DNA from: Strigamia acuminata
Lineage: Eukaryota; Arthropoda; Chilopoda; Geophilomorpha; Linotaeniidae
Direction: 5' to 3'
NCBI GenBank assembly: GCA_949358305.1
Contig: OX442319.1
Span: 11,904,001-11,968,000, forward strand
Length of the DNA: 64,000 nucleotides
Under the pieces are notes generated by a model, which saw nothing but the letters and a program-made list of their open reading frames with translations, had not been told where the DNA came from and did not search any database. Shown here piece after piece: positions 4,714 through 32,419 of the stretch. Position 1 is the stretch's first letter; the number at the start of each line of letters is the position of its first letter. Both the position numbers and the translations under genes were made by a program.

Positions 4714-5425
4714 TAAGCATTTCTAAGAAAGGTTTTATTTTATAAGCCTTTCTCAGTATTTTGTAAGCATTTCTCAGTATTTTGTAAGCATTTCTCAGTA
4801 TTTTGTAAGCATTTCTCAGTATTTTGTAAGCATTTCTCTGTATTTTGTAAGCATTTCTCTGTATTTTGTAAGCATTTCTCTGTATTTTGTAAGCATTTCT
4901 CTGTATTTTGTAAGCATTTCTCTGTATTTTGTAAGCATTTCTCTGTATTTTGTAAGCATTTCTCTGTATTTTGTAAGCATTTCTCTGTATTTTGTAAGCA
5001 TTTCTCTGTATTTTGTAAGCATTTCTCTGTATTTTGTAAGCATTTCTCTGTATTTTGTAAGCATTTCTCTGTATTTTGTAAGCATTTCTCTGTATTTTGT
5101 AAGCATTTCTCTGTATTTTGTAAGCATTTCTCTGTATTTTGTAAGCATTTCTCTGTATTTTGTAAGCATTTCTCTGTATTTTGTAAGCATTTCTCTGTAT
5201 TTTGTAAGCATTTCTCTGTATTTTGTAAGCATTTCTCTGTATTTTGTAAGCATTTCTCTGTATTTTGTAAGCATTTCTCTGTATTTTGTAAGCATTTCTC
5301 TGTATATTGTAAGCATTTCTCTGTATTTTGTAAGCATTTCTCTGTATTTTGTAAGCATTTCTCTGTATTTTGTAAGCATTTCTCTGTATTTTGTAACATT
5401 TCTCTGTATTTTGTAAGCATTTCTA
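4714..5425. repeat. Minisatellite, 21-bp unit, about 33 copies
   Basis: A nearly perfect tandem array of the 21-bp unit GCATTTCTCTGTATTTTGTAA, with an older CTCAG variant on the left edge. Read on the minus strand it gives a long artificial open frame (a heptapeptide repeat) because 21 is a multiple of three. T-tracts within the unit are about 10 bp apart. Confidence 0.95.
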
Positions 5426-5784
5426 AGGAAGGCTAGAAAGGGCACCGTGCAGGAATACTCACAGGGGCCACCTACGTGTATCCCGCTTAGCGTGGAGTCT
5501 GACACACGAGTCCTAAGGACACCAATTAAGCTTATCAATCCAATAAATAAATACTCCGTATGATTTATTTTTTTATTTTTTAGACAACGGTAGAAGGAAA
5601 ATCTAAATCAAGCGCTACAAATGGCGAGCCTGGGTACGTCGAATGGTTTATAACGGGCTGTATAATGTGAGAAACAGTGATCTGGATATTCAGACTTATT
5701 TGGTTGGCTTTAGTGTCAGTTTGGTGTTTTTTAAGTTTGAAAGTAGATTTTTGTGAGTTTTTTGTCGTTTGGTTTTGTTAATTC
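5426..5784. other. Unidentified segment, possible LTR or element end
   Basis: Holds a GC-richer block (5434-5530, with GGGGCCACCTACGTG) that ends in a run of AATAAATAAATA, then AT-rich sequence. It sits between the 21-bp minisatellite and the dispersed repeat at 5785. It could be the terminal part of the same element. No coding potential seen. Confidence 0.3.
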
Positions 5785-8733: not shown

Positions 8734-9117
8734 TTACTTCTGTTGCGTGTACTTGGACACCGCTTTCGTTCCTTCGCTGACCGCGTGCTTCGCCAATTCG
8801 CCGGGCAGAACCAAACGAACCGCGGTTTGGATTTCCCGACTGGAAATGGTCGAGCGCTTGTTGAGCGCCGCCAAACGCGACGCCTCGTTCGCAATCCTTT
8901 CGAAAATGTCGTTGACGAAACTGTTCATGACTACCATCGTCTTGGAGGAGACCCCAATGTCTGGATAGACTTGCTTCAACACCCTGTAGATGTAAATGGA
9001 ATAACTTTCCTTCTTTCGCCGCCTCGACATCTTCTTCGGCGCAACCTGACTGACGATCTTCGGCGCCGCTTCGGCTTTCTTCAACGTCTTGCCGCTACCT
9101 TTTGGTGGAGGAACCAT
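8734..9117 (-). CDS. Histone H2B, gene 2
   Basis: Intact single-exon H2B of 127 residues, a paralogue of the gene at 2192-2578. It reads [20 protein letters not shown], then the histone fold with [39 protein letters not shown] and [19 protein letters not shown]. It is closer to standard H2B than gene 1 (Val kept in NSFVNDIF, Asn-Lys-Arg kept in L1). The start at 9117 matches gene 1 and excludes an upstream in-frame extension that overlaps the promoter. There is no histone 3' stem-loop; AATAAA follows on the minus strand. It is divergent from the membrane-protein gene at 9345 with 227 bp between start codons. Confidence 0.94.
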
Positions 9118-9344
9118 GACTGACCACACCTGACAAAATGACAAACTGAATGAACTGTGCTGCAGTAAATCGGTAAATGGGGAATACAGGACCGACGTAG
9201 AAGAGGAGTTTTTCTCCAACCAATCACAAACACTCTGGAATCTCCTCCAAACGTTGCACTAACGTCTAGAATTGCTTAGATGTATATATAAATAAGGTGT
9301 GCAGCTTGAACTTTTAATTTAACAACTACGGTAGTCGTTTCGCA
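9118..9344. promoter_or_regulatory. Bidirectional promoter between H2B gene 2 and the small membrane-protein gene
   Basis: Only 227 bp separate the two start codons. For the plus gene a TATA box (TATATATAAATA) lies at 9283-9294, about 50 bp before its ATG. A CCAAT box (9220-9224, plus orientation) sits between the genes. The 24-bp ACGTCGG element shared with H2B gene 1 is at 9183-9206. The H2B-side TATA is weak (TTTACCG near 9165-9172). Confidence 0.6.
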
Positions 9345-16078: not shown

Positions 16079-17321
16079 ATGGACATCAGTCCGACTGCTA
16101 ACATCACAAATGGATGCCAAGATGTGCACGGTGGCGGTGGAAATGCGACGCAACACATCGAAGCTAGACAAGTTACTGCACCGGTAACAATTCATCTTAC
16201 AAAGACCTATCTAAGTCGTGACCCCGAAGGTTTGCATTACCATTTTAAATATTCAAAACAAAAATACATAATTTGTAACAAATACATGGAATTATTTTAC
16301 TGTATGTACAGTTGCTGCTAACAAACCGAAACATGAAGTCAGATCCTGCTGCGAAACAACTGATGGTGATAGCAACAAACGGTGCGATGTTTTTCAAACA
16401 AATCTGAAAACGTTTTACAGCAAATTAGCTTTACCAAAAGTTGCTTGGATGAAGGAAGGGAAACAGTTGTTGATTGACGAACATTTCATCCAACTGGAAC
16501 TAAATGAATCGAAGAAACAAATCAAAATACAAAACGTTTTCAGTCGGGTGAAGAAGAAACGACCGCTCCGAATCCTCATTGAAGGACAGCCGAGCTTCGG
16601 CAAAACAACGCTGGCGATCAAACTCGCCCACGACTGGGCCACGACTCGGAATTACAACGACTTCAAATTTGCTTTTCTGGTGCATTTACGAGACCTAGGA
16701 CAACGCAGCCTCGAAGCAGTGATTGAAGAAATAGGAAAACGGTGCGACTCACACGACATCGTGTCCATTATAAATAACCACAGAAGAGAAACCCTTTTTC
16801 TACTCGACGGTTTAGATGAATTGACGCCAGAAGAACGAGGAGAAATCGTGAAAATTTTATACCGCCAAATGTACAGCGAAGTAACGGTGGTTGCATTCTG
16901 TCGAACGGGTCTGTTCAGATTGAGTGGCGATGAAAGGTCGGAATTGTTCGGATCGCACGAAATGCTGAACGATTTTTCCAACAAGAGAATTTACACAATG
17001 GGCATTACGAGCACGGATAAGAAAATGGAATTTTTGGAGAAATTATTTGTACCAAAATATACTATCGAAGTCGTAATGGAAACTTTATCGTCAGAATGGG
17101 AATTATTCAATTCGCCGTTACTTCTCATGCTCCTGTCAATTATAATTCGCGGAGGTGAAACCGTTCCCATTGGGACCACCAAAACTCATTTATTCAAAAA
17201 AATATTTAACTTCAGTTTGAAGCAAAGTTTTACCAAACCTAGTCAAATTAATTTCGCTGCTAAAAATTTGCTTATTAATTTCATGTTTGAAAGCTTTTTT
17301 CCAACAGTTATCGTGTTCTAA
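16079..17321 (+). CDS. NACHT-domain NTPase (NLR-like), two exons
   Basis: Exon 1 is 16079-16229 and exon 2 is 16312-17321; the intron is GT...AG and splits a codon (phase 1). The product is 386 residues. Residues 142-150 (GQPSFGKTT) are a Walker A loop after the hydrophobic strand RILIE. Residues 212-221 (LFLLDGLDEL) are the Walker B of NACHT proteins, and a sensor-like FCRTGLF follows. NACHT ATPases oligomerise as innate immune sensors. No DEATH, CARD or TIR domain is seen in the first 100 residues, and no LRR follows: the frame ends at TAA shortly after the helical region. It is shorter than usual NLRs (often over 800 residues). Either further exons exist that I cannot see or this is a truncated member. 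Confidence 0.7.
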
Positions 17322-18879: not shown

Positions 18880-19345
18880 TCAATCAGTCACATTCGACTC
18901 CACGAGCCTGTGGTGCTTTTCCAACGGCTCATCCCAGCACGGATTAAACCCAGCGAACCCCGGAGATGGATGGGTTTTGTGAATGATTTGAGCGCAAAAC
19001 TCATCCACCAAGCGTGGTTGCTGAGTTCCAGACCATGTGTAGGCTTAGCTCTTTGTACGGTCAACAAGCGTAGCGACCCTCGGGATAACACTAACGGACA
19101 TGTTGCTTGGTGAGCATCATGATGTAGCCCAGTCCAAGAACTACTCCTACAGAGAAATTTCTTTTCTCCATTTAGAAGGATTAGAACTCGTTAAAAAAGG
19201 GAGTAAGTGTGGTTATCTCAAGTGTATTTTTATATATTTGTTGTCACCACTTAGAAATATTTATAATCTGTTTTAGAAGTTAGATCTACAATTAACCAAT
19301 CCAATTAAAAGGAAAGGGAGGTATACAATTAAATAAAGGCTGTAT
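18880..19345 (+). mobile_element. Dispersed element copy 2, LTR/TRIM-like
   Basis: Aligned with 5865-6306 throughout (see that entry). Indels and substitutions disrupt the open frame seen in copy 1, so the sequence is probably non-coding element DNA. It is again directly followed by the GGCTGTATTTTGTAAGCATT seed and a minisatellite. Confidence 0.5.
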
Positions 19346-19580
19346 TTTGTAAGCATTTCTAACGAAGGCCGTATTTTGTATGCCATTTCCCTATATTTTC
19401 TAAGCATTTCCCTATATTTTCTAAGCATTTCCCTATATTTTCTAAGCATTTCCCTATATTTTCTAAGCATTTCCCTATATTTTCTAAGCATTTCCCTATA
19501 TTTTCTAAGCATTTCCCTATATTTTCTAAGCATTTCCCTATATTTTGTAAGCATTTCTAAGAAAGGCTGTATCAAAACAG
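19346..19580. repeat. Minisatellite, 21-bp unit, about 9 copies
   Basis: The unit is AAGCATTTCCCTATATTTTCT. It differs from the 4.7-kb and 6.3-kb arrays by a few bases but has the same phase and the same flanking seed, so the expansion happened separately at this locus. Confidence 0.92.
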
Positions 19581-19650
19581 TATGTAAGTTATTCCTCTGT
19601 GACTGTGATCTTATCGGTGTTTCAGCATATGATGGAATTATTGTGCTGTA

Positions 19651-22927: not shown

Positions 22928-23445
22928 TGTTACGAGGTTGACGAGCACACTGTGAACCAGTTGTCGCCACCTCGCTTCCGTAACTAAACGATTCGAATTA
23001 ATGCTGTAAACCCTCACTAGAGTTCGCCTTAAGCGAATGATCTCACTAATTTACCCATTAAGTAATAGTAGAATCACCCAAGTTTACTTGGCTGATGAGG
23101 AGAACTGAAACGTCAGTTCATTCCGAGCTTTCATACCGAGAGGTTGTCGGGCAGTTACTGCCACGGCATCTTGAGGTTCTTCACCCACCAAAGTTATTCA
23201 TGCTTACCAGATTTAAGATAGTTTTATAAGATTTAGTTTTAAGTTAATCTTTGGTTCATTTCAGATTGTATTTATGATTTAATAAACATACTGTTATATT
23301 TTAATAATAATACAATGAGTCCTCTTTATTTCCTTCTTATTAGCAACACAGTTAAATGCTAGTTTAACTTAATGCAATTACAAACCCCCAGTTTAATAGT
23401 AAAGTATTTACGTGGTCAAACAGTAGTCAGTCTGGCCACGTAACA
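22928..23445 (+). repeat. 5' LTR
   Basis: 518 bp with TGTTACG...CGTAACA terminal inverted repeats. A TATA-like TTTTATAAG lies at 23222-23230 and AATAAA at 23281-23286, in the order expected for promoter and poly(A) signal within an LTR. It is identical by eye to the 3' LTR. Confidence 0.95.
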
Positions 23446-23448
23446 AAG

Positions 23449-23466
23449 TGGTGGAGATTGCGGTTC
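23449..23466 (+). promoter_or_regulatory. Primer-binding site (probable)
   Basis: Three bases after the LTR a TGG (complement of the tRNA CCA end) starts TGGTGGAGATTGCGGTTC. The spacing fits a tRNA-primed element. I cannot name the tRNA without a search. Confidence 0.5.
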
Positions 23467-24104
23467 TTTCTATTTGAGACCCATTAATTGGCTAAAAGTA
23501 GTGAAAAGTAGTAAAAGTAAAGTGAAATTGGCCAGTTATTTGCTAAAATTAGAAGATCCATTTGAAATCCGTACAAATTTGCATTAAAATTCAGTAAAAT
23601 TCAAATAAAAGTCATATAAAATTTTGAAAAGTTGCAAACTCATTTGCATGAGTGATAAGATTGAAAGGTGACTCATTGTGAAAACTTTCTTTTAGGGTCA
23701 ATTGCAGTTGAATATTTAATTATAGTGCACTAATAAGATTTACATATTTGAATTTATTAAAGATATTTACTCAAGTTGAATTTATAATAAAATGAGGTTG
23801 TTTTGGAGGTTAAGAGTGGTGAATATTCAATGTTTGTTTAATGATAAAACTTATATTAATAATGATTCAATTATAGGAAATGTTTTCTTTTTGGTTTATG
23901 TAGAAGTTTATGTTGATTTTGATGATTAATTTTGATTATTTTTCAGGAAATAATAATAATTTTTTTTTGTTATTGAAATTTATTTTGAATTAGTGACTAA
24001 TTGTGATAATTAATTGTGCATAAGTTTATTTCAGGGTTAGTAAAAGTTGTGAGTTGTTAAGAGCGTTCTGTGAATAAAGTGAAGGTATAATTAAAGGCTT
24101 AACA
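23467..24104 (+). other. Retrotransposon leader
   Basis: AT-rich, without a long frame. It contains a donor-like AAG/GTATAA at 24084-24090, just before gag. Together with an acceptor-like TTTTTGCACATATTAG ending at 30050 (16 bp before the third ORF) it could make a spliced subgenomic RNA; this is inference. Confidence 0.35.
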
Positions 24105-25451
24105 GTGGATCAGCCAGTTAAGTTATCACAGGCGCAAGTGGATAATCTACTGGACTTAAAGAATCAAGAATTAGAAAGAGAATTAGTAAGCACAGTGGAT
24201 GATTCCAAAGTAGCGGTTAGAAAAAGAAAAACAACTTCACAGTCGGAACCTGGAATAAAGGAGGTTGAGCAAAATACTTCCACATTGGATGATAAACTTG
24301 TTTTTGCAACCCCATTAAAATTTGCGCAATCAAAGTCTTTTCAATCAGTATTTGAATTGTTAACGCCAGTAAAATTAAAGGAATCCACATCAAAAGGAAC
24401 TGTATCCAAGATGGTGGATCCAACAACAGTTTTAACTGATCTTCTCAAGGGTATTTTGATACAAAAGCGCGAAGTTGTTTGTTATGATACGGAAAAAGGT
24501 AACATTGACCAATGGCTTGTGGCTTATGAAGCTACAATAGCATCAGATGATGAACGAGTGAAACAATTGCCGTTAGCCCTTAAGACTGACGGACTGGCAT
24601 GGTTTGTGGAACAATATAAAACGAATCCAACCTGGACTTGGACAGAATGGAAGCCACAAATCGAAAAGAAGTTCAGGAAAAGCCAGGAAAATGTATTGAA
24701 CACTCTTCATTTTATGAGGCATTCAGATGGTAAAGCCGATGCATTTATGAAGAAGGTCTTGGCCGAATGTGCTTATGCGCGACCAGAATTACCTGAGAAT
24801 TTGAAGATTAATTATATTTTTCAAGGATTGAAGCCGGAAATGCAAAAGATGTTGATTACTGTATTCCCGAAGACTTTGGCGGATATGGAAGAGAGAATTA
24901 AGTTATTCGAAAGTCATAAAGTAAAAGACCCAGCAGATGTTCTACTTGCAGCGTTTAAAAAAATCGTGGATGAGAAGGTGATCCCGGTAACAGCAGGTAA
25001 ACTGAGTGGAACCGTGGGGACCCAACCAACCCACGCTGAGTTAATAGCTGAAGTCGCTGATTTAAAGCGGCGATTGTTAGAGGCAGAGTCAGTGGATTTG
25101 CTGGATGAAGAGTCGATACTGATACAAAATCAGTGGTATGCGCCAATAAGGAATAGGGGACAGTATAATCAAGGAGGTAGAAGTAGAGGCAGTAGACAAG
25201 GCTTTAACCCTAATTACAATAATTATAATACTAACAATAGTAATAATTCTAATAACCGTTCATGCGGATGTTATCATCATTTCAGCTGTGAGTTTTACAA
25301 TCCACCCAGGCAACAACAACAGCAACAACAGCAACAGGAAAGAGGTGGAAGTAACAGCTGGAAGTGGAATAAAAAGAGGAGAAGAGGTGAACAGCAAGAT
25401 GGAAACCCTAATCCTCAGGCACAAACGAAGGCCCAAAATTCGAAAAACTAG
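24105..25451 (+). CDS. gag: gag polyprotein of the LTR retrotransposon
   Basis: The frame is open from 24078 to a TAG at 25449-25451. No ATG lies before codon 103 (24411, MVDPTTVL), yet the upstream codons look protein-like (VDNLLDLKNQELEREL), so the start is unresolved: non-AUG, spliced leader, or 24411. I give the longest frame from 24105 (448 residues). The capsid-like core is at residues about 135-275: IDQWLVAYEATIASDDERV, LKTDGLAWFVEQY, FRKSQENVLNTLHFMRHSDG. The C-terminus is Asn/Gln-rich and basic. The zinc knuckle is not standard: instead of C-x2-C-x4-H-x4-C there is CGCYHHFSC. It overlaps the open pol frame by 40 bp. Confidence 0.88.
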   Translation: MDQPVKLSQAQVDNLLDLKNQELERELVSTVDDSKVAVRKRKTTSQSEPGIKEVEQNTSTLDDKLVFATPLKFAQSKSFQSVFELLTPVKLKESTSKGTVSKMVDPTTVLTDLLKGILIQKREVVCYDTEKGNIDQWLVAYEATIASDDERVKQLPLALKTDGLAWFVEQYKTNPTWTWTEWKPQIEKKFRKSQENVLNTLHFMRHSDGKADAFMKKVLAECAYARPELPENLKINYIFQGLKPEMQKMLITVFPKTLADMEERIKLFESHKVKDPADVLLAAFKKIVDEKVIPVTAGKLSGTVGTQPTHAELIAEVADLKRRLLEAESVDLLDEESILIQNQWYAPIRNRGQYNQGGRSRGSRQGFNPNYNNYNTNNSNNSNNRSCGCYHHFSCEFYNPPRQQQQQQQQQERGGSNSWKWNKKRRRGEQQDGNPNPQAQTKAQNSKN

Positions 25452-28400
25452 TTGAACGGCCACAGAGAAATTGTTGCCACCCAAAGAAAAGGAAAAGACA
25501 AAAGAAGAAGAGTAAGATAATTATAATTGACGTTCAGGTATCGGAATCATTGTTGGAGATCCCAGTAATTGTAAAAGAAAGGGAAATAAAAGCGGTAATG
25601 GACACTGGAGCCAAACGAAACCTGCTAAGCGAAGAAGTTGCAATAGCTCTTCAATTGGATTATTCACCCAGCCCTAACATTAGGCTACGTGGGATAGGAA
25701 AGGATTTGGTAGTTCCAGTGGGTAAAACAAAAATGAACATTGCAATTGGAAAACTGACCTATAGAGTGGAAGTGTTAATAGTGTCAGGATTTCATCATCA
25801 GCTTTTATTGGGGGATCCATTCATGAGGTCAACGAGAACTGTCGTCGATTATGATTTACAAAAAATCTTTGTGGGCCGGAACAATGATAGTGGAGTAGAA
25901 GAAGCAGTTTTTCCAATAAATAGATCATTTTCGGACCAGAGTTATGTTGCCAGAGTAATGAAGAATATCTCAATTCCACCAATGCATGAATGCGTTATAC
26001 CAGTTTATTTAAATACAAAATTAACCACAGAAATGTTTATGGAACCTCTAGGAAATGTAATAGATAGGTTTGGAATTTTGTGTTGTAAAACATTAACAAA
26101 TTTTGAGTATGGTAAAGGAGTTCTGCGTGTGGCTAATCCAACAAACAAATCAGTCTTTCTGAAGGAGAAATCTGCAATTGGTAAGGCGTACTACATTATT
26201 GAGATTGGGTTGTTGGATGAGAAGCAAGTGTATTGCACTGACTCCTCAACCAAAGCGGTTGAGTTGACAGATGAAAAGCAAGTACATTGCTTTGACTTTG
26301 ACTCCTCGATTGCTAAAGATAAGATGAACAAAAGCCAACAAGAGCAGATGAAGCAGTTACTTCAAAGGAATCAGGATAGATTTGCAGCCACAGACAAAGA
26401 CTTAGGTAGAGTAACAACATTTAAACACAAAATTGATACGGGGGACCATGATCCAATACATTTGCAGCCTTATAGACGTTCAATCGCAGAAAAAGAAGTA
26501 GAGGCAGAAGAGACCAGAAAGTTGCTTGAGATGGGAGTCATTAGGGAATCAGAAAGTCCATGGAGTGCACCAGTACTTCTCATCAAGAAAAGAGACGGTA
26601 AATGGAGATTTTGTGTCGATTGGAGGAGGTTAAACGCGATCACAAAGAAAATGGTATACCCACTGCCCAGGATTGACGATACATTGGACCAACTGGCAGG
26701 GGCCCAGTATTTTTCGATGATGGATCTTATTCAAGGATATTATCAAGTCGAAATAGATGAACAAGATCGTGAAAAAACAGCGTTTACCACTTCAAGCGGA
26801 CATTTTGAGTTTAACGTCCTAGGAATGGGATTATGTAATAGCCCAGCTGCGTTTCAGAAATTGATGAACAAGGTGCTTGGTAATCTTCTTGGCAAGGTCT
26901 GTATAGCTTATATTGACGACCTTATAATCTTCTCGAAGACTTTTGACCAGCATCTTCAGGATCTCGATGCTGTCTTCAGTAAGCTGCGGTTGGCAAACTT
27001 AAAGGTTAAACTTAGCAAATGTACGTTTGGTACTAATACCATCAAATATTTAGGCCACATAGTTGATTCTGATGGAGTGTCACCTGATCCACGTAATTTG
27101 GAAAGTGTAGCTAAATTTCCAAAACCAACAAATTTGAAGCAGTTGAGAGGGTTTTTGGGTTTATGTTCGTATTATCGAAAGTTTATTCCAGGATTTGCGG
27201 ACGTATCTAAGCCCTTAGCCAACTTAACTCGCAAAGATGAAGCTTTTGATTGGGGACCACCACAGGAAACAGCGTTTAAGGCCTTACGGACAGCTTTAGT
27301 TACGGTACCAGTATTGGCACATCCAAATTTTGCAGAGCCATTCATTGTATCTACGGATGCAAGTGCTTATGGGCTTGGTGCAATTTTGAAGCAGCGTATT
27401 AACAAGCAAGAACATGTGATTTGTTACGCCAGTCGATTGTTAAGTACAGCGGAACAAAATTACACAGCTACGGAAAGAGAATGTTTAGCCATAATATTCG
27501 GCATTAACAAGTACAGACCATATCTTTACGGTAGGAAATTTACAATTGTGACAGACCATTCTGCGTTACAATGGCTGAATAAGGTGAAAAATCCCAACGG
27601 TAGATTGGCCAGGTGGAGTTTACAACTGGTAGATTACGACTACGATGTGATGCATAAGTCAGGCAAGAAGCACACGGATGCAGATGCTCTTAGCCGAATC
27701 CAAGAAGAGATTGGTGAGGAAGAAAAAGAAATTATTCCCTTACTACTTCTCGAAAAACTCAACTTACCTGTAGAACAGCGTAAGGATGAGAAAATTTTGG
27801 AGATCATCACCGCAATGGAGAACATTGAGCAACTTCCAAGAAACAGGAAACGTCCTTTAAAACAGTTCGTTCTCCTGGATAACACGTTGTTTAGAAAGAA
27901 AAGTTACAATTCTCTAAACATGGAAGGAAACCTTTTAGTAGTACCGCAGCATTTACGTAAGCAAGTGTTAGAAGAAATGCATGACGGGCTCGTAGGTGCT
28001 CATCTCGGCCTAAATAAGACGTGGAAAAGAATTAGAGTAAGATTCTTTTGGCCGAGGATATACAGGGACGTAAGGAATTACGTTCTCAGTTGTCCACATT
28101 GCGCAGGAAGTAAGTCAATGACCACTCCACAAAAAGGTTTATTACAACCTTGGTCGACGATTTCAAGACCGTTTGAGAGGATTGGTATAGACACGTTAGG
28201 AAGCTTTCCAGTTTCAAATAGTGGAAATAAATATGTTTTTGTTATCACTGATTACTTGTCGCGTGCAGTCATCGCCAGAGCGGCTCCAGCATGTACAGCG
28301 TTGGAAGCAGCGAAAACTCTTGTATTCGAGGTGATGCTCAAAGAGGGAAGTCCACGCGAGATACTCAGCGATAAGGGGACAGAGTACAGGAACGAAATGA

Positions 28401-29494
28401 TCAATGAAGTATCAGCACTGTTTAAATCCCAGCACAAATCTACTTCCGGGTACCATCCAAGGACCAACGGATTAACGGAAAGATTTAATGCAACATTTGC
28501 CAAAATGTTGACATGTTATACTAATAAAGATCACACAGATTGGGATGAATTTTTACCATTTGTCATTTTCTCCTATAATTCAGCAGTCCATGAAACAACT
28601 GGATATACCCCATATTATTTGTTGAAAGGTTATGAAGTTGATTTGAGTGTGGATGTGAACTTGAATCTTCCTCGAAAGGAATTCACTCTTCGCACTTCTA
28701 GATTTATGCGGGAGATGCGGAAAATTGCCAACGAAAGACTAGAATGGCAGAGTGAGAAAAGCAAGAGAAGATTTGATTTGGACAGAATTGTGGTGGAATT
28801 CGAACCAGGGGAATTAGTTTACTTGAAAACTCCGAATAGGAAAGTAGGGTTAAGCGAAAAACTCCTGCCACCATTTTCTGGACCATATGAAATAGTTCGA
28901 CGCACAGCGCCAAACGATTATGAAGTGAGGAATTCATCAGGAAAGAAAACTAGTATTGTCAATGTTGAGCGTTTAAAACCATACAAGCCGAGAGAGGAAA
29001 TTCCAGAAACTATTCTGCAGGATTTACCACCAAAGAAAGTAACATTTTCTGATGAAGTGCAAGGAAGTTCGCAAAAAGACGATCAAAATGCGGAAATTGT
29101 GAAGAAGGACGATGATTCGCGAGATAGGCCTAAAGTAGGAGCGAAGGAAAGGTTTATTGATGATGATGATCAAATTTCGTTGAGGAATTTCTTTGAATCC
29201 GGAGATAAAACGTCGGATTCGCCGGTTCTAACTGAAAGAGAGCGATTGAAGGCAATTTACGGGCCGAAAGAAATTGAGGCACGTCGAGTGAAAAAGGAAG
29301 TTGAGTTAGAACAGCGAAATCAGTTGCTAAAATCGTCGCCAGACGAAAGCAAGAAGAATCGGTTGCAGAAACCATCACCAGGTGTCGCAAATGCTGTTGG
29401 CGCCGATACGCATGCGCGACGTCCTGCTGAAAGTGATTTCCGGTCACGACGACTTAGATCGCAACCACGCCAAGATTACACTGCATTTTACTAG
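25412..29494 (+). CDS. pol: pol polyprotein: protease, reverse transcriptase, RNase H, integrase
   Basis: The pol frame is open from 25412 and is -1 relative to gag; the overlap 25412-25451 contains GAAAAAC before the gag stop, a possible but non-canonical slip site. There is no ATG near the start, so expression as Gag-Pol is likely. Counting from 25550: aspartic protease motif DTGA at about 18-21; RT with KWRFCVDWRRLNA, FSMMDLIQGYYQ and catalytic YIDD at about 454; RNase H with STDASAYGLGA at about 601 and TDHSALQWL; integrase zinc finger (H-H...C-x2-C, CPHCAGSK) at about 815-855; DD35E core with D in GIDTLG, D in SDKGTEY and E in LTERFN; then a GPY-type module (FSGPYEIV...VNVERLKPY). The acidic/basic tail of about 150 residues has no known domain. 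No frame break is seen. Confidence 0.95.
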   Translation, partial: SSGTNEGPKFEKLVERPQRNCCHPKKRKRQKKKSKIIIIDVQVSESLLEIPVIVKEREIKAVMDTGAKRNLLSEEVAIALQLDYSPSPNIRLRGIGKDLVVPVGKTKMNIAIGKLTYRVEVLIVSGFHHQLLLGDPFMRSTRTVVDYDLQKIFVGRNNDSGVEEAVFPINRSFSDQSYVARVMKNISIPPMHECVIPVYLNTKLTTEMFMEPLGNVIDRFGILCCKTLTNFEYGKGVLRVANPTNKSVFLKEKSAIGKAYYIIEIGLLDEKQVYCTDSSTKAVELTDEKQVHCFDFDSSIAKDKMNKSQQEQMKQLLQRNQDRFAATDKDLGRVTTFKHKIDTGDHDPIHLQPYRRSIAEKEVEAEETRKLLEMGVIRESESPWSAPVLLIKKRDGKWRFCVDWRRLNAITKKMVYPLPRIDDTLDQLAGAQYFSMMDLIQGYYQVEIDEQDREKTAFTTSSGHFEFNVLGMGLCNSPAAFQKLMNKVLGNLLGKVCIAYIDDLIIFSKTFDQHLQDLDAVFSKLRLANLKVKLSKCTFGTNTIKYLGHIVDSDGVSPDPRNLESVAKFPKPTNLKQLRGFLGLCSYYRKFIPGFADVSKPLANLTRKDEAFDWGPPQETAFKALRTALVTVPVLAHPNFAEPFIVSTDASAYGLGAILKQRINKQEHVICYASRLLSTAEQNYTATERECLAIIFGINKYRPYLYGRKFTIVTDHSALQWLNKVKNPNGRLARWSLQLVDYDYDVMHKSGKKHTDADALSRIQEEIGEEEKEIIPLLLLEKLNLPVEQRKDEKILEIITAMENIEQLPRNRKRPLKQFVLLDNTLFRKKSYNSLNMEGNLLVVPQHLRKQVLEEMHDGLVGAHLGLNKTWKRIRVRFFWPRIYRDVRNYVLSCPHCAGSKSMTTPQKGLLQPWSTISRPFERIGIDTLGSFPVSNSGNKYVFVITDYLSRAVIARAAPACTALEAAKTLVFEVMLKEGSPREILSDKGTEYRNEMINEVSALFKSQHKSTSGYHPRTNGLTERFNATFAKMLTCYTNKDHTDWDEFLPFVIFSYNSAVHETTGYTPYYLLKGYEVDLSVDVNLNLPRKEFTLRTSRFMREMRKIANERLEWQSEKSKRRFDLDRIVVEFEPGELVYLKTPNRKVGLSEKLLPPFSGPYEIVRRTAPNDYEVRNSSGKKTSIVNVERLKPYKPREEIPETILQDLPPKKVTFSDEVQGSSQKDDQNAEIVKKDDDSRDRPKVGAKERFIDDDDQISLRNFFESGDKTSDSPVLTERERLKAIYGPKEIEARRVKKEVELEQRNQLLKSSPDESKKNRLQKPSPGVANAVGADTHARRPAESDFRSRRLRSQPRQDYTAFY

Positions 29495-30065
29495 CTTTTC
29501 TTTAAGTGAACGCAAGTTATTTGCAGTGAGCGAAGGGAATTGTTATTCTCCGAGTGTGATTGACGAGGATTTCGCATATTTTCTGTGAAAGTAGGTACTT
29601 TTAATTGACGAAAGTTAATATGAACGCAGACGAGACGTGACACGATTTTGAAGTTGTATTTTCTTGTTTTTTGAGGCGAACGCAAGTTATTTGCAGTGAA
29701 CCAAGAATAACTCGAATTTACTAGTTGATTTGAACAATTTTGAGACATTTTTCTCCAGTTTTGGATAATATTAATAAAAGTGCCGAAAGTGAACAAAACG
29801 AAACGAATCTATCGCCATTTTTCCAGCGAATAAAGAGAACTTCGCACATTTTTGAAATGTTAACTTGACATTTAATTTTAAAATTTAATAGAAATAGCTA
29901 TGAATATTTAATTGGTTTAGATGAAATAATTTGAATATTGTATAAAGTTAAAAGTTTAACGAAATTTAGACAAATTGATTGTGAACATGAATTGTATTGG
30001 CCATTAATCAATTGTAATTAATGAATTTAATTTATTTTTGCACATATTAGACTTGAATAGACGAT
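29495..30065 (+). other. Spacer between pol and the third ORF
   Basis: No frame of note. A 22-bp direct repeat (core ACGCAAGTTATTTGCAGTGA) occurs at about 29508 and 29680. A splice-acceptor-like tract ends at 30050. Confidence 0.45.
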
Positions 30066-31418
30066 ATGACGGGAAAATTTAGTCGGATGGACGTAAAAGA
30101 CAGCTCAGACGAAGACGACAATATTTCCGTGTGTTCGGGAGTTTCGACCCAGATGTTTGACTTATATGACAGGCAGTCGGAGTTGGAACACTTGGATGTC
30201 TTGGCTGAGGAGGAAGACATTGCAACTGTTCCCATTAAACCGTTGTCCGAACTGGTAACATTTAAGCGACCATTCTCCGAACGTAAAGAACTCGGTGCGC
30301 GGCCGAAAGTTTATGACAAGCCCTTGACGCCGAAACAACTTAGCAAGATTGAGCGCCGAAAACGCTGTGAGCAAAGGAGAAGAATGGCGGATACAGCGGA
30401 AAAGCGCGCATTCACGAAAAAGGGACTTCAAGTCATCAAGAAGCAGGCTGAGAAGACAGTAACCCGAAATGAGAAGCGTCTTGGAGAACTTAGAGTCGAG
30501 CAGCGCTGTATGACCGAGGAAGTGAGGAAAAAAGGTCTGAAAGGCCTTGATGGACGGTTGGTTTTTGAAGCATGGTTTCGTGCGGCAGATAAATTGCTTC
30601 AGTATGAGGCCAAGATCAGACGCAATATCCAGCGTGCGAAAGCGCTCGGGCGGCGCGAGTATAAAGAAGACCCTTGTGTAATTTTGCCAAAACAACTGAT
30701 ACTCTATCGCGTTCGTTTACAAGGAGATCAACAGATGGAGGCGTTGGAAGCAACGGTAGCTTTTAGTTATCGACCAAAGCATGAAACAGCGATTACTATG
30801 TCAGATGACCCGTCCATAATTATAACCAATAGGGAAATGGCGTCTCTTGGACACCTTGCGCCAGGTGAAAGGGCTTGGGTTCATCCAAGTGTGATTGATC
30901 ATTATTTGCGAATGCTCGCAAAATTTAATGAACGAGTATGGGCAGTCAGAGTCGACTTTGTCGAAATGATACTAGACGCCGAGCGGTTTCCAGAAGCATG
31001 GAGATGGATGAAGAAAACCCATGACCATTATGGGAAGTCAATTTGGATTTTTCCTATACCGGAAATCGATCACTGGCAATTGTTTGTGGTCGATTGGACC
31101 AAATTTCCAACACAGGTAACGCTCTACGATCCGAGTGGGGTTCTGACTTTCAGTTGCCCTGCTTGGGAGCGAGTGCATAATTGTATTGTCGGGGCTGGAA
31201 TGGTTTTTCCACGGGGCTATGAGAAGTGGGACCCGCCCCGTATGCAACAGCTTGACGGCGACAGCTGCGGGCCCACTATCTTATATTTTGCCCGCCGATA
31301 TATTGAAGACAGGGACAACATGCGCCATGGCCATCCGATCGATTTGCGCCAGCGAATAGTGTACGAGATCTTACACGAGAAGTTGATCCCATTCGAAAAG
31401 GAGGAAAACCAGCCTTAA
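30066..31418 (+). CDS. Third ORF of the retrotransposon: Ulp1/C48-like cysteine protease
   Basis: The 450-residue frame starts at an ATG. Residues 1-60 are acidic, 85-165 form a very basic, probably coiled-coil region (ERRKRCEQRRRMADTAEKR). The last third has the layout of C48 (Ulp1/SENP, adenain) proteases: IDHWQLFVVDW with His336, LYDPSG with Asp355, then QQLDGDSCGPTIL with Gln395 and Cys401, followed by FARRYIE. Order His-Asp-Gln-Cys and the (D/N)G-x-(D/S)CG context fit the family; these enzymes cut SUMO-like or precursor proteins. Position between pol and the 3' LTR is where env or accessory ORFs sit. There is no signal peptide or membrane segment, so it is not an envelope gene. The assignment rests on motifs read by eye. 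Confidence 0.75.
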   Translation: MTGKFSRMDVKDSSDEDDNISVCSGVSTQMFDLYDRQSELEHLDVLAEEEDIATVPIKPLSELVTFKRPFSERKELGARPKVYDKPLTPKQLSKIERRKRCEQRRRMADTAEKRAFTKKGLQVIKKQAEKTVTRNEKRLGELRVEQRCMTEEVRKKGLKGLDGRLVFEAWFRAADKLLQYEAKIRRNIQRAKALGRREYKEDPCVILPKQLILYRVRLQGDQQMEALEATVAFSYRPKHETAITMSDDPSIIITNREMASLGHLAPGERAWVHPSVIDHYLRMLAKFNERVWAVRVDFVEMILDAERFPEAWRWMKKTHDHYGKSIWIFPIPEIDHWQLFVVDWTKFPTQVTLYDPSGVLTFSCPAWERVHNCIVGAGMVFPRGYEKWDPPRMQQLDGDSCGPTILYFARRYIEDRDNMRHGHPIDLRQRIVYEILHEKLIPFEKEENQP

Positions 31419-31889
31419 TCGGACATTAAGAGTTGTGTGAAATTATTTTTTTTGTGTATTATTTATTTTGTATTATTCGTCAATGATGTGAGCCCAGGTG
31501 TACTGGAGCGAGCAGAGACATTATTTTTTTTATTATTTGAAGTTGATATTGTTTTTCTTAATTTTGTTATTGTTTTCATTTTCATTCACATTGAATGTAG
31601 TGTATATTATTTTTTTTGAATTTTTAGGTTGTATAGAAAATAGGAAAACTGAAAAAAAAGTAATATAAGTGTAAAAATATCAAAAAGTGTTAATCTTGAA
31701 AGTGTATTTGTGTAATAATTGACATATGATTTTGAATTTTTGTAATTTGAAATTGTTTTTAGTAAATATTGTTTAAAGTATAAGTTTTGTGAAAGTAAGC
31801 ATGAATAACAGGGAATGAACTCATATATAAGCATGAACAACAAGGGAGTTTGTTTAGTTAAATAACTTGTTTTTGGGGTCCAAAAATCT
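31419..31889 (+). other. Retrotransposon 3' untranslated region
   Basis: AT-rich with poly-T and poly-A runs and no convincing frame. Confidence 0.45.
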
Positions 31890-31900
31890 AAAGGAGGGGG
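31890..31900 (+). promoter_or_regulatory. Polypurine tract
   Basis: AAAGGAGGGGG ends one base before the 3' LTR, as required for priming plus-strand DNA synthesis. Confidence 0.85.
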
Positions 31901-31901
31901 C

Positions 31902-32419
31902 TGTTACGAGGTTGACGAGCACACTGTGAACCAGTTGTCGCCACCTCGCTTCCGTAACTAAACGATTCGAATTAATGCTGTAAACCCTCACTAGAGTTCG
32001 CCTTAAGCGAATGATCTCACTAATTTACCCATTAAGTAATAGTAGAATCACCCAAGTTTACTTGGCTGATGAGGAGAACTGAAACGTCAGTTCATTCCGA
32101 GCTTTCATACCGAGAGGTTGTCGGGCAGTTACTGCCACGGCATCTTGAGGTTCTTCACCCACCAAAGTTATTCATGCTTACCAGATTTAAGATAGTTTTA
32201 TAAGATTTAGTTTTAAGTTAATCTTTGGTTCATTTCAGATTGTATTTATGATTTAATAAACATACTGTTATATTTTAATAATAATACAATGAGTCCTCTT
32301 TATTTCCTTCTTATTAGCAACACAGTTAAATGCTAGTTTAACTTAATGCAATTACAAACCCCCAGTTTAATAGTAAAGTATTTACGTGGTCAAACAGTAG
32401 TCAGTCTGGCCACGTAACA
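31902..32419 (+). repeat. 3' LTR
   Basis: 518 bp, identical by eye to the 5' LTR, followed by the ATAT target duplication (32420-32423). Confidence 0.95.

Follow-up and report, generated by a model that had tools for sequence, protein, structure and literature searches.

In a 64,000-nucleotide stretch of the genome of the centipede Strigamia acuminata (contig OX442319.1, positions 11,904,001 to 11,968,000; hereafter the window), a Ty3/Gypsy long terminal repeat (LTR) retrotransposon spanning 22928-32419 on the plus strand carries an intact third open reading frame (ORF3, 30066..31418, plus strand) between pol and the 3' LTR, the usual place of env. The best explanation of our results, to which as a whole we give roughly even chances, is that a Ty3/Gypsy lineage has long had ORF3 as its third gene and that ORF3 encodes a SENP1/2-type SUMO isopeptidase that is made from a spliced mRNA, acts in trans, probably in the nucleus, and relieves SUMO-dependent repression.

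The predicted ORF3 protein comprises an acidic disordered N-terminus, a basic helical region and a SENP1/2-like C48 protease domain (30705..31388, plus strand; residues 214-441). In all five family representatives compared (families A to E, defined below), the first 60 residues are acidic (-5 to -13) and residues 61-215 are basic (+13 to +24); the helical part of this N-terminal region has no clear match in the PDB. The C48 fold was found by sequence comparison and by a structure model, in which the catalytic His336, Asp355, Gln395 and Cys401 follow one another in C48 order within a CE-clan fold, in agreement with the original prediction, which had recognized these residues and the intact frame from the window alone. 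The C48 match that this prediction called for was obtained in sequence and structure but only weakly in Pfam, where PF02902 scores the window ORF3 at 14.4 bits, below its gathering score of 20.7, and a genome-wide search with the same family does not list ORF3. All 19 copies compared, from five families between which synonymous sites of ORF3 are saturated, have the catalytic tetrad unchanged, and likewise W271 and W337, which align with W465 and W534 of SENP1, the residues that line the diglycine tunnel of that enzyme. Identity to SENP1/2 is 20-27% in the aligned rows of the fold comparison. Relatives retrieved by fold include binders of SUMO or NEDD8, and the viral enzymes listed are poorer fold matches than SENPs (African swine fever virus [ASFV] protease, 12.6; poxvirus I7L, 10.6); adenain is not among the 50 fold matches listed, which is no evidence of its absence.

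A six-frame search of the 237.5 Mb genome found at least 96 ORF3 matches, window copy included, down to about 39% identity, a lower bound given that 94 of 456 candidates were scored. Among these matches 76 are longer than 1250 bp, and 66 of the 76 have no listed in-frame stop. Identity to the window ORF3 is 92-100% in family A, 49-50% in B, 47-49% in C, 42% in D and 40% in E, and a second search with a family E member revealed more families, 61-66% and 51-54% identical to that member. The reverse transcriptases (RTs) checked in other families are 81-90% identical to that of the window. The 40 nucleotides following the 3' LTR differ among nine family A copies (seven begin with ATAT, one with ATAC and one with CTAT), which therefore represent separate insertions. 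A one-off insertion of host sequence into a single element is ruled out by the number of genome matches and by the finding, detailed below, that copies without ORF3 are mostly deletion derivatives.

ORF3 is under purifying selection. Ratios of nonsynonymous to synonymous substitution (dN/dS) were calculated by NG86 for 38 unsaturated within-family pairs, in which synonymous divergence (dS) reaches 0.68, and were at or below 0.12 in 31 of them: 0.03-0.17 in family A (eight copies giving 28 pairs, with no p above 2.8e-5), 0.15, 0.15 and 0.39 in family B, 0.14 in the three unsaturated of ten family C pairs, 0.07 in one family D pair, and 0.08-0.12 in three family E pairs. The C48 half of the protein is significant in all 38 pairs, once only at p 0.046, and the N-terminal half alone fails significance in two of the 38. 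Together with the at least 96 genome matches, these values bear out the original prediction that ORF3 belongs to the element and is in use, and the check for purifying selection that it had proposed came out positive (within-family 0.03-0.17, a single pair at 0.39). In ten family A pairs, RT dN/dS is 0.02-0.08 and ORF3 dS is about 1.9 to 4.5 times RT dS, so that pol and the 3' part have partly different histories, probably through template switching. Comparisons between families meet saturated synonymous sites, the RTs of B and C being the exception (dS about 0.5). For ORF3, nonsynonymous divergence (dN) among A, B/C and D is 0.47-0.64, versus 0.07-0.10 for RT. Over long times ORF3 thus evolves much faster than RT, although the two diverge in the same order.

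The ORF3 start lies about 7 kb from the 5' end of the element, and ORF3 would most likely be translated from a spliced subgenomic mRNA. A putative 3' splice acceptor at 30030..30050 (plus strand) is T-rich and ends in AG 6 nucleotides before the ancestral ORF3 start at 30057. In families A-D, one representative from each of six lineages has its last AG 5-7 nucleotides before the ORF3 ATG and after a T-rich stretch (6/6), although AG occurs just 1-4 times per 100 nucleotides there; these lineages are related, and the sites are accordingly not independent. The nearest AG of family E lies 12 nucleotides from the ORF3 start and lacks a T-rich stretch, and a stronger acceptor-like stretch lies further upstream, as in copy L096.

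Under our explanation, the protein would be a SENP1/SENP2-type SUMO isopeptidase fused to a basic helical N-terminal region, and its diffusible product would act in trans, probably in the nucleus, stripping SUMO off proteins of the host (or of the element itself); what the element would most probably gain is relief of SUMO-dependent transcriptional repression. We favor a trans-acting deSUMOylase because the element has its own aspartic protease, because the fold is SENP1/2-like, and because of the basic region and the precedents that connect SUMO with silencing. SUMO conjugation restrains Ty1 in yeast: with deltaN-ulp1, an allele whose product has lost its pore tethering, Ty1 RNA rises 3.5-fold and retrotransposition 89-fold, and Ty1 also rises in SUMO-conjugation mutants (PMC8585004). 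Small-RNA silencing needs SUMOylation of Panx in flies (PMC13195609) and of HDA-1 in worms (PMC8131101). More tentatively, and with somewhat less than even probability, a nuclear SENP-type deSUMOylase in the env slot, long carried by the lineage and made from a spliced mRNA, may strip SUMO from silencing factors and thereby license ORF3-deleted freeloaders in trans. An intact, selected SUMO-protease-like gene of this sort would make the element a direct candidate for encoding its own antagonist of SUMO-dependent silencing. One genome offers a comparison between ORF3-bearing and ORF3-deleted lineages with nearly identical RTs.

Several observations weigh against this explanation. The splice sites are proposed from the nucleotide sequence alone; proteases that act on NEDD8, ubiquitin or viral polyproteins share this fold; the family B pair with dN/dS 0.39 is not significant (p 0.10); and the catalytic His is replaced by Ser or Arg, in an open frame, in three E-side copies (L094, L095, L096). 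In the yeast study, a catalysis-impaired ulp1 allele also raises Ty1 RNA (PMC8585004), and the precedent is therefore not a clean gain of deSUMOylation. The remaining points come from copies that lack ORF3. In a genome search with RT, which scored 91 of 3998 candidates, 38 of the matches scored are at least 96% identical to the window; 14 of them show a match to ORF3 at the distance expected and 24 have none listed, and among the 53 scored matches at 88-90% identity at least 21 have ORF3. The ORF3 slot was read in each of these 24 close copies and in two that are more distant. Internal deletions falling into four recurrent classes account for 19 of the 24 (among loci L031-L036 and L074-L087), with window junctions at 29945/31438 (class i, six copies), 30058/31195 (class ii, four), about 30062/31299 (class iii, five) and 30013/31285 (class iv, four). 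In the other five, one copy retains only a C-terminal remnant and four have no ORF3 match; of the two distant copies, one has a remnant and one no match. To the originally proposed check of whether the ORF is always present, the answer is that many copies carry it and that most of the close copies without it are deletion derivatives.

Classes ii-iv (13 copies) keep a piece of the ORF3 3' end, and they therefore descend from ORF3-bearing elements and do not represent forms that preceded its insertion. The junctions show microhomology, that is, short shared stretches and not GT-AG ends, and an intron was rejected as the explanation of the missing ORF3. The flanks after the LTR end differ in 17 of the 19 class copies (12 ATAT, 2 ATAC and 3 GTAT; L035 and L075 were unreadable), which rules out segmental duplication as the source of the shared junctions in these 17 and indicates that each class spread by separate insertions. 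The 3' region is 95.6-98.5% identical to the window in classes i and ii and 72.8-97.1% in iii and iv, and the latter two may be older. An open RT frame of 1360 amino acids is listed for 17 of the 19. The element thus spreads without its own ORF3, and since the classes were amplified by separate insertions, ORF3 is dispensable in cis. Dispensability in cis combined with conservation in the copies that bear ORF3 fits a trans-acting product; a merely helpful function fits as well.

Among alternative roles, ORF3 might remove SUMO, ubiquitin or NEDD8 from Gag, integrase, or repair or nuclear-import factors, aiding integration and not transcription. A role of this type was proposed for the C48/OTU domains of Ginger and MULE transposases, and the same domain recurs in the DNA transposases of Ginger1 and Mutator (PMC2836005). 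Weak matches to Mutator and PHD accompany C48 in another protein of this genome, and the SUMO- or NEDD8-binding fold relatives suit this role too, but ORF3 is separate and not fused to integrase, and ORF3-less copies have integrated at separate sites; we consider an integration role possible though unlikely. In adenoviruses and Mavericks, C48-like enzymes process the capsid proteins, and ORF3 could by analogy be a second maturation protease for the element's own Gag or Gag-Pol. We regard this as improbable, because the element already has an aspartic protease in pol (PF13650, E 3.3e-8, above the cut-off) and because the fold and sequence are nearer to SENP1/2 than to the viral enzymes listed; ORF3-less copies with 1360-residue RT frames are, moreover, common and have spread. 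That deletion derivatives amplify without ORF3 and that three copies have lost the catalytic His would also be expected of a non-functional passenger that was captured from the host and copied along as the element recently amplified, but such a passenger is very hard to reconcile with low dN/dS at dS values as high as those above and with an active site invariant across five families. Least credible of all is an env-like or particle-structural protein using the protease fold for binding only, which would suit the env slot and a possible env-like spliced mRNA but not a model in which helices and a C48 domain with an invariant tetrad follow a disordered N-terminus.

The trans-acting deSUMOylase that we prefer has parallels in several known systems. 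SENP1 and SENP2 (Ulp1 branch, MEROPS C48) are host enzymes, whereas ORF3 is encoded by an LTR retrotransposon. Errantiviruses have env as a third ORF, and in rotifer and plant LTR elements, too, pol and the 3' LTR are separated by an additional ORF; unlike these, the third ORF described here encodes a C48 protease. The maturation proteases of ASFV and poxviruses, like those of adenoviruses and Mavericks, have the CE-clan cysteine protease fold in common with ORF3; the ASFV and poxvirus enzymes are the weaker fold matches, and the element has its own aspartic protease. The nearest retrotransposon precedent is the Ulp1-like cysteine protease domain of nematode NeSL elements and of Utopia-1_TSP from Trichinella spiralis (PMC4640811); these are non-LTR retrotransposons with the domain N-terminal on the RT protein, whereas ORF3 follows pol as a reading frame of its own in a Ty3/Gypsy element. 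Ulp1 or OTU domains are also reported in Ginger1, whose integrase is Gypsy-like, and in Mutator-like transposases (PMC2836005), which are mobile elements carrying C48 as here but DNA transposons, the domain of Ginger1 being fused to the transposase. No Ty3/Gypsy element with a C48 third ORF was found among the literature titles and beginnings of abstracts listed, Repbase reports lying outside this search, and neither "Ulp1" nor "SUMO" appears in the body of three papers that treat additional ORFs (PMC5408684, PMC7264820, PMC11963269). C48 domains in mobile elements are already known (MULE, Ginger, NeSL/Utopia), and as far as these listings show none is recorded as a Ty3/Gypsy third ORF; the original prediction did not mention the NeSL/Utopia precedent.

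Relatives of ORF3 outside this genome were sought in a collection of 5.8 billion proteins that includes arthropod sequences, where none reached E 1e-3 among 5773 sequence candidates or 7993 alignment-scored ones, on an E-value scale that hides distant C48 relatives; in IMG/VR contigs, none of 34 matches to two peptide patterns was confirmed. Within the genome PF02902 lists 29 places, including a SENP1-like locus, and none of the 29 coincides with a match from either ORF3 search. The ORF3 profile scores other C48 frames weakly (best 20.2 bits, L062); as a possible source of ORF3, the best host SENP-like locus is split (L051), and its pieces, at 9.3 bits, do not outscore L062. Two long frames (L062 and L099) contain C48 and no other Pfam domain, and a repeated frame (L056, within loci L056-L061) combines C48 with weak, below-cut-off PHD and Mutator matches. 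On C1, positions 47990089-48098941 hold six ORF3-like matches in about 109 kb, three of them with identical listed scores and 31-32 kb apart; the one copy read in this 48-Mb cluster (L092), considered as a possible domesticated gene, is truncated and lacks two residues after the Cys.

The 5' LTR (22928..23445, plus strand) begins with TGTTACG and ends with CGTAACA, and an ATAT precedes it; the 3' LTR (31902..32419, plus strand) is followed by ATAT, the two forming a target site duplication. The LTRs are identical, as originally noted, over 519 of 519 bp (518 bp from TG to CA plus one trailing A). Directly 3' of the 5' LTR lies a putative primer binding site, TGGTGGAGATTGCGG (23449..23463, plus strand), which starts with TGG, and a polypurine tract, AAAGGAGGGGGC (31890..31901, plus strand), adjoins the 3' LTR. 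The pol gene (25550..29494, plus strand), delimited by Pfam matches and open frames, encodes aspartic protease, RT, RNase H and the zinc-binding, core and C-terminal domains of integrase in the Ty3/Gypsy order; the integrase core falls 3 bits under its cut-off (PF00665, 29.6 versus 32.6 bits) and the remaining domains pass. This order, the TG...CA LTR pair, the short target duplication and the polypurine tract place the element in Ty3/Gypsy. Among the 120 of 985 pol relatives listed, those named are mostly arachnid; the best-scoring one is 42% identical over 72% of the query, and one from Daphnia is 36% identical. SL1 RNA, sought as a mark of a nematode host, gave no match to an exact 22-mer and none by Rfam, the latter being no proof of absence. 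Some family A LTRs (L001-L016, L024) differ by up to about 33% from that of the window, with the compared RTs at least 96% identical, which suggests mosaic elements.

A 448-codon frame at 24105..25451 (plus strand) is named gag by its position; it has no Pfam match above the cut-off, and the open frame of pol overlaps its end from about 25412 in the -1 frame. The gag-like frame starts with GTG, with no in-frame ATG there, and does so at the same place in all nine other copies read; it may begin at a non-AUG codon or after splicing. The GTG is preceded by an acceptor-like TTAACAG or similar in 10 of 10 copies (window 24085-24125; L063-L071). Elsewhere in the window, an open frame at 16449-17321 encodes a NACHT NTPase domain (Pfam E 1.4e-14), two minus-strand frames at 2192-2710 and 8734-9219 are presumably histone H2B-like, a long repeated frame lies on the minus strand at about 4740-5538, and tandem arrays of a 21-nucleotide unit occupy 19342-19593.
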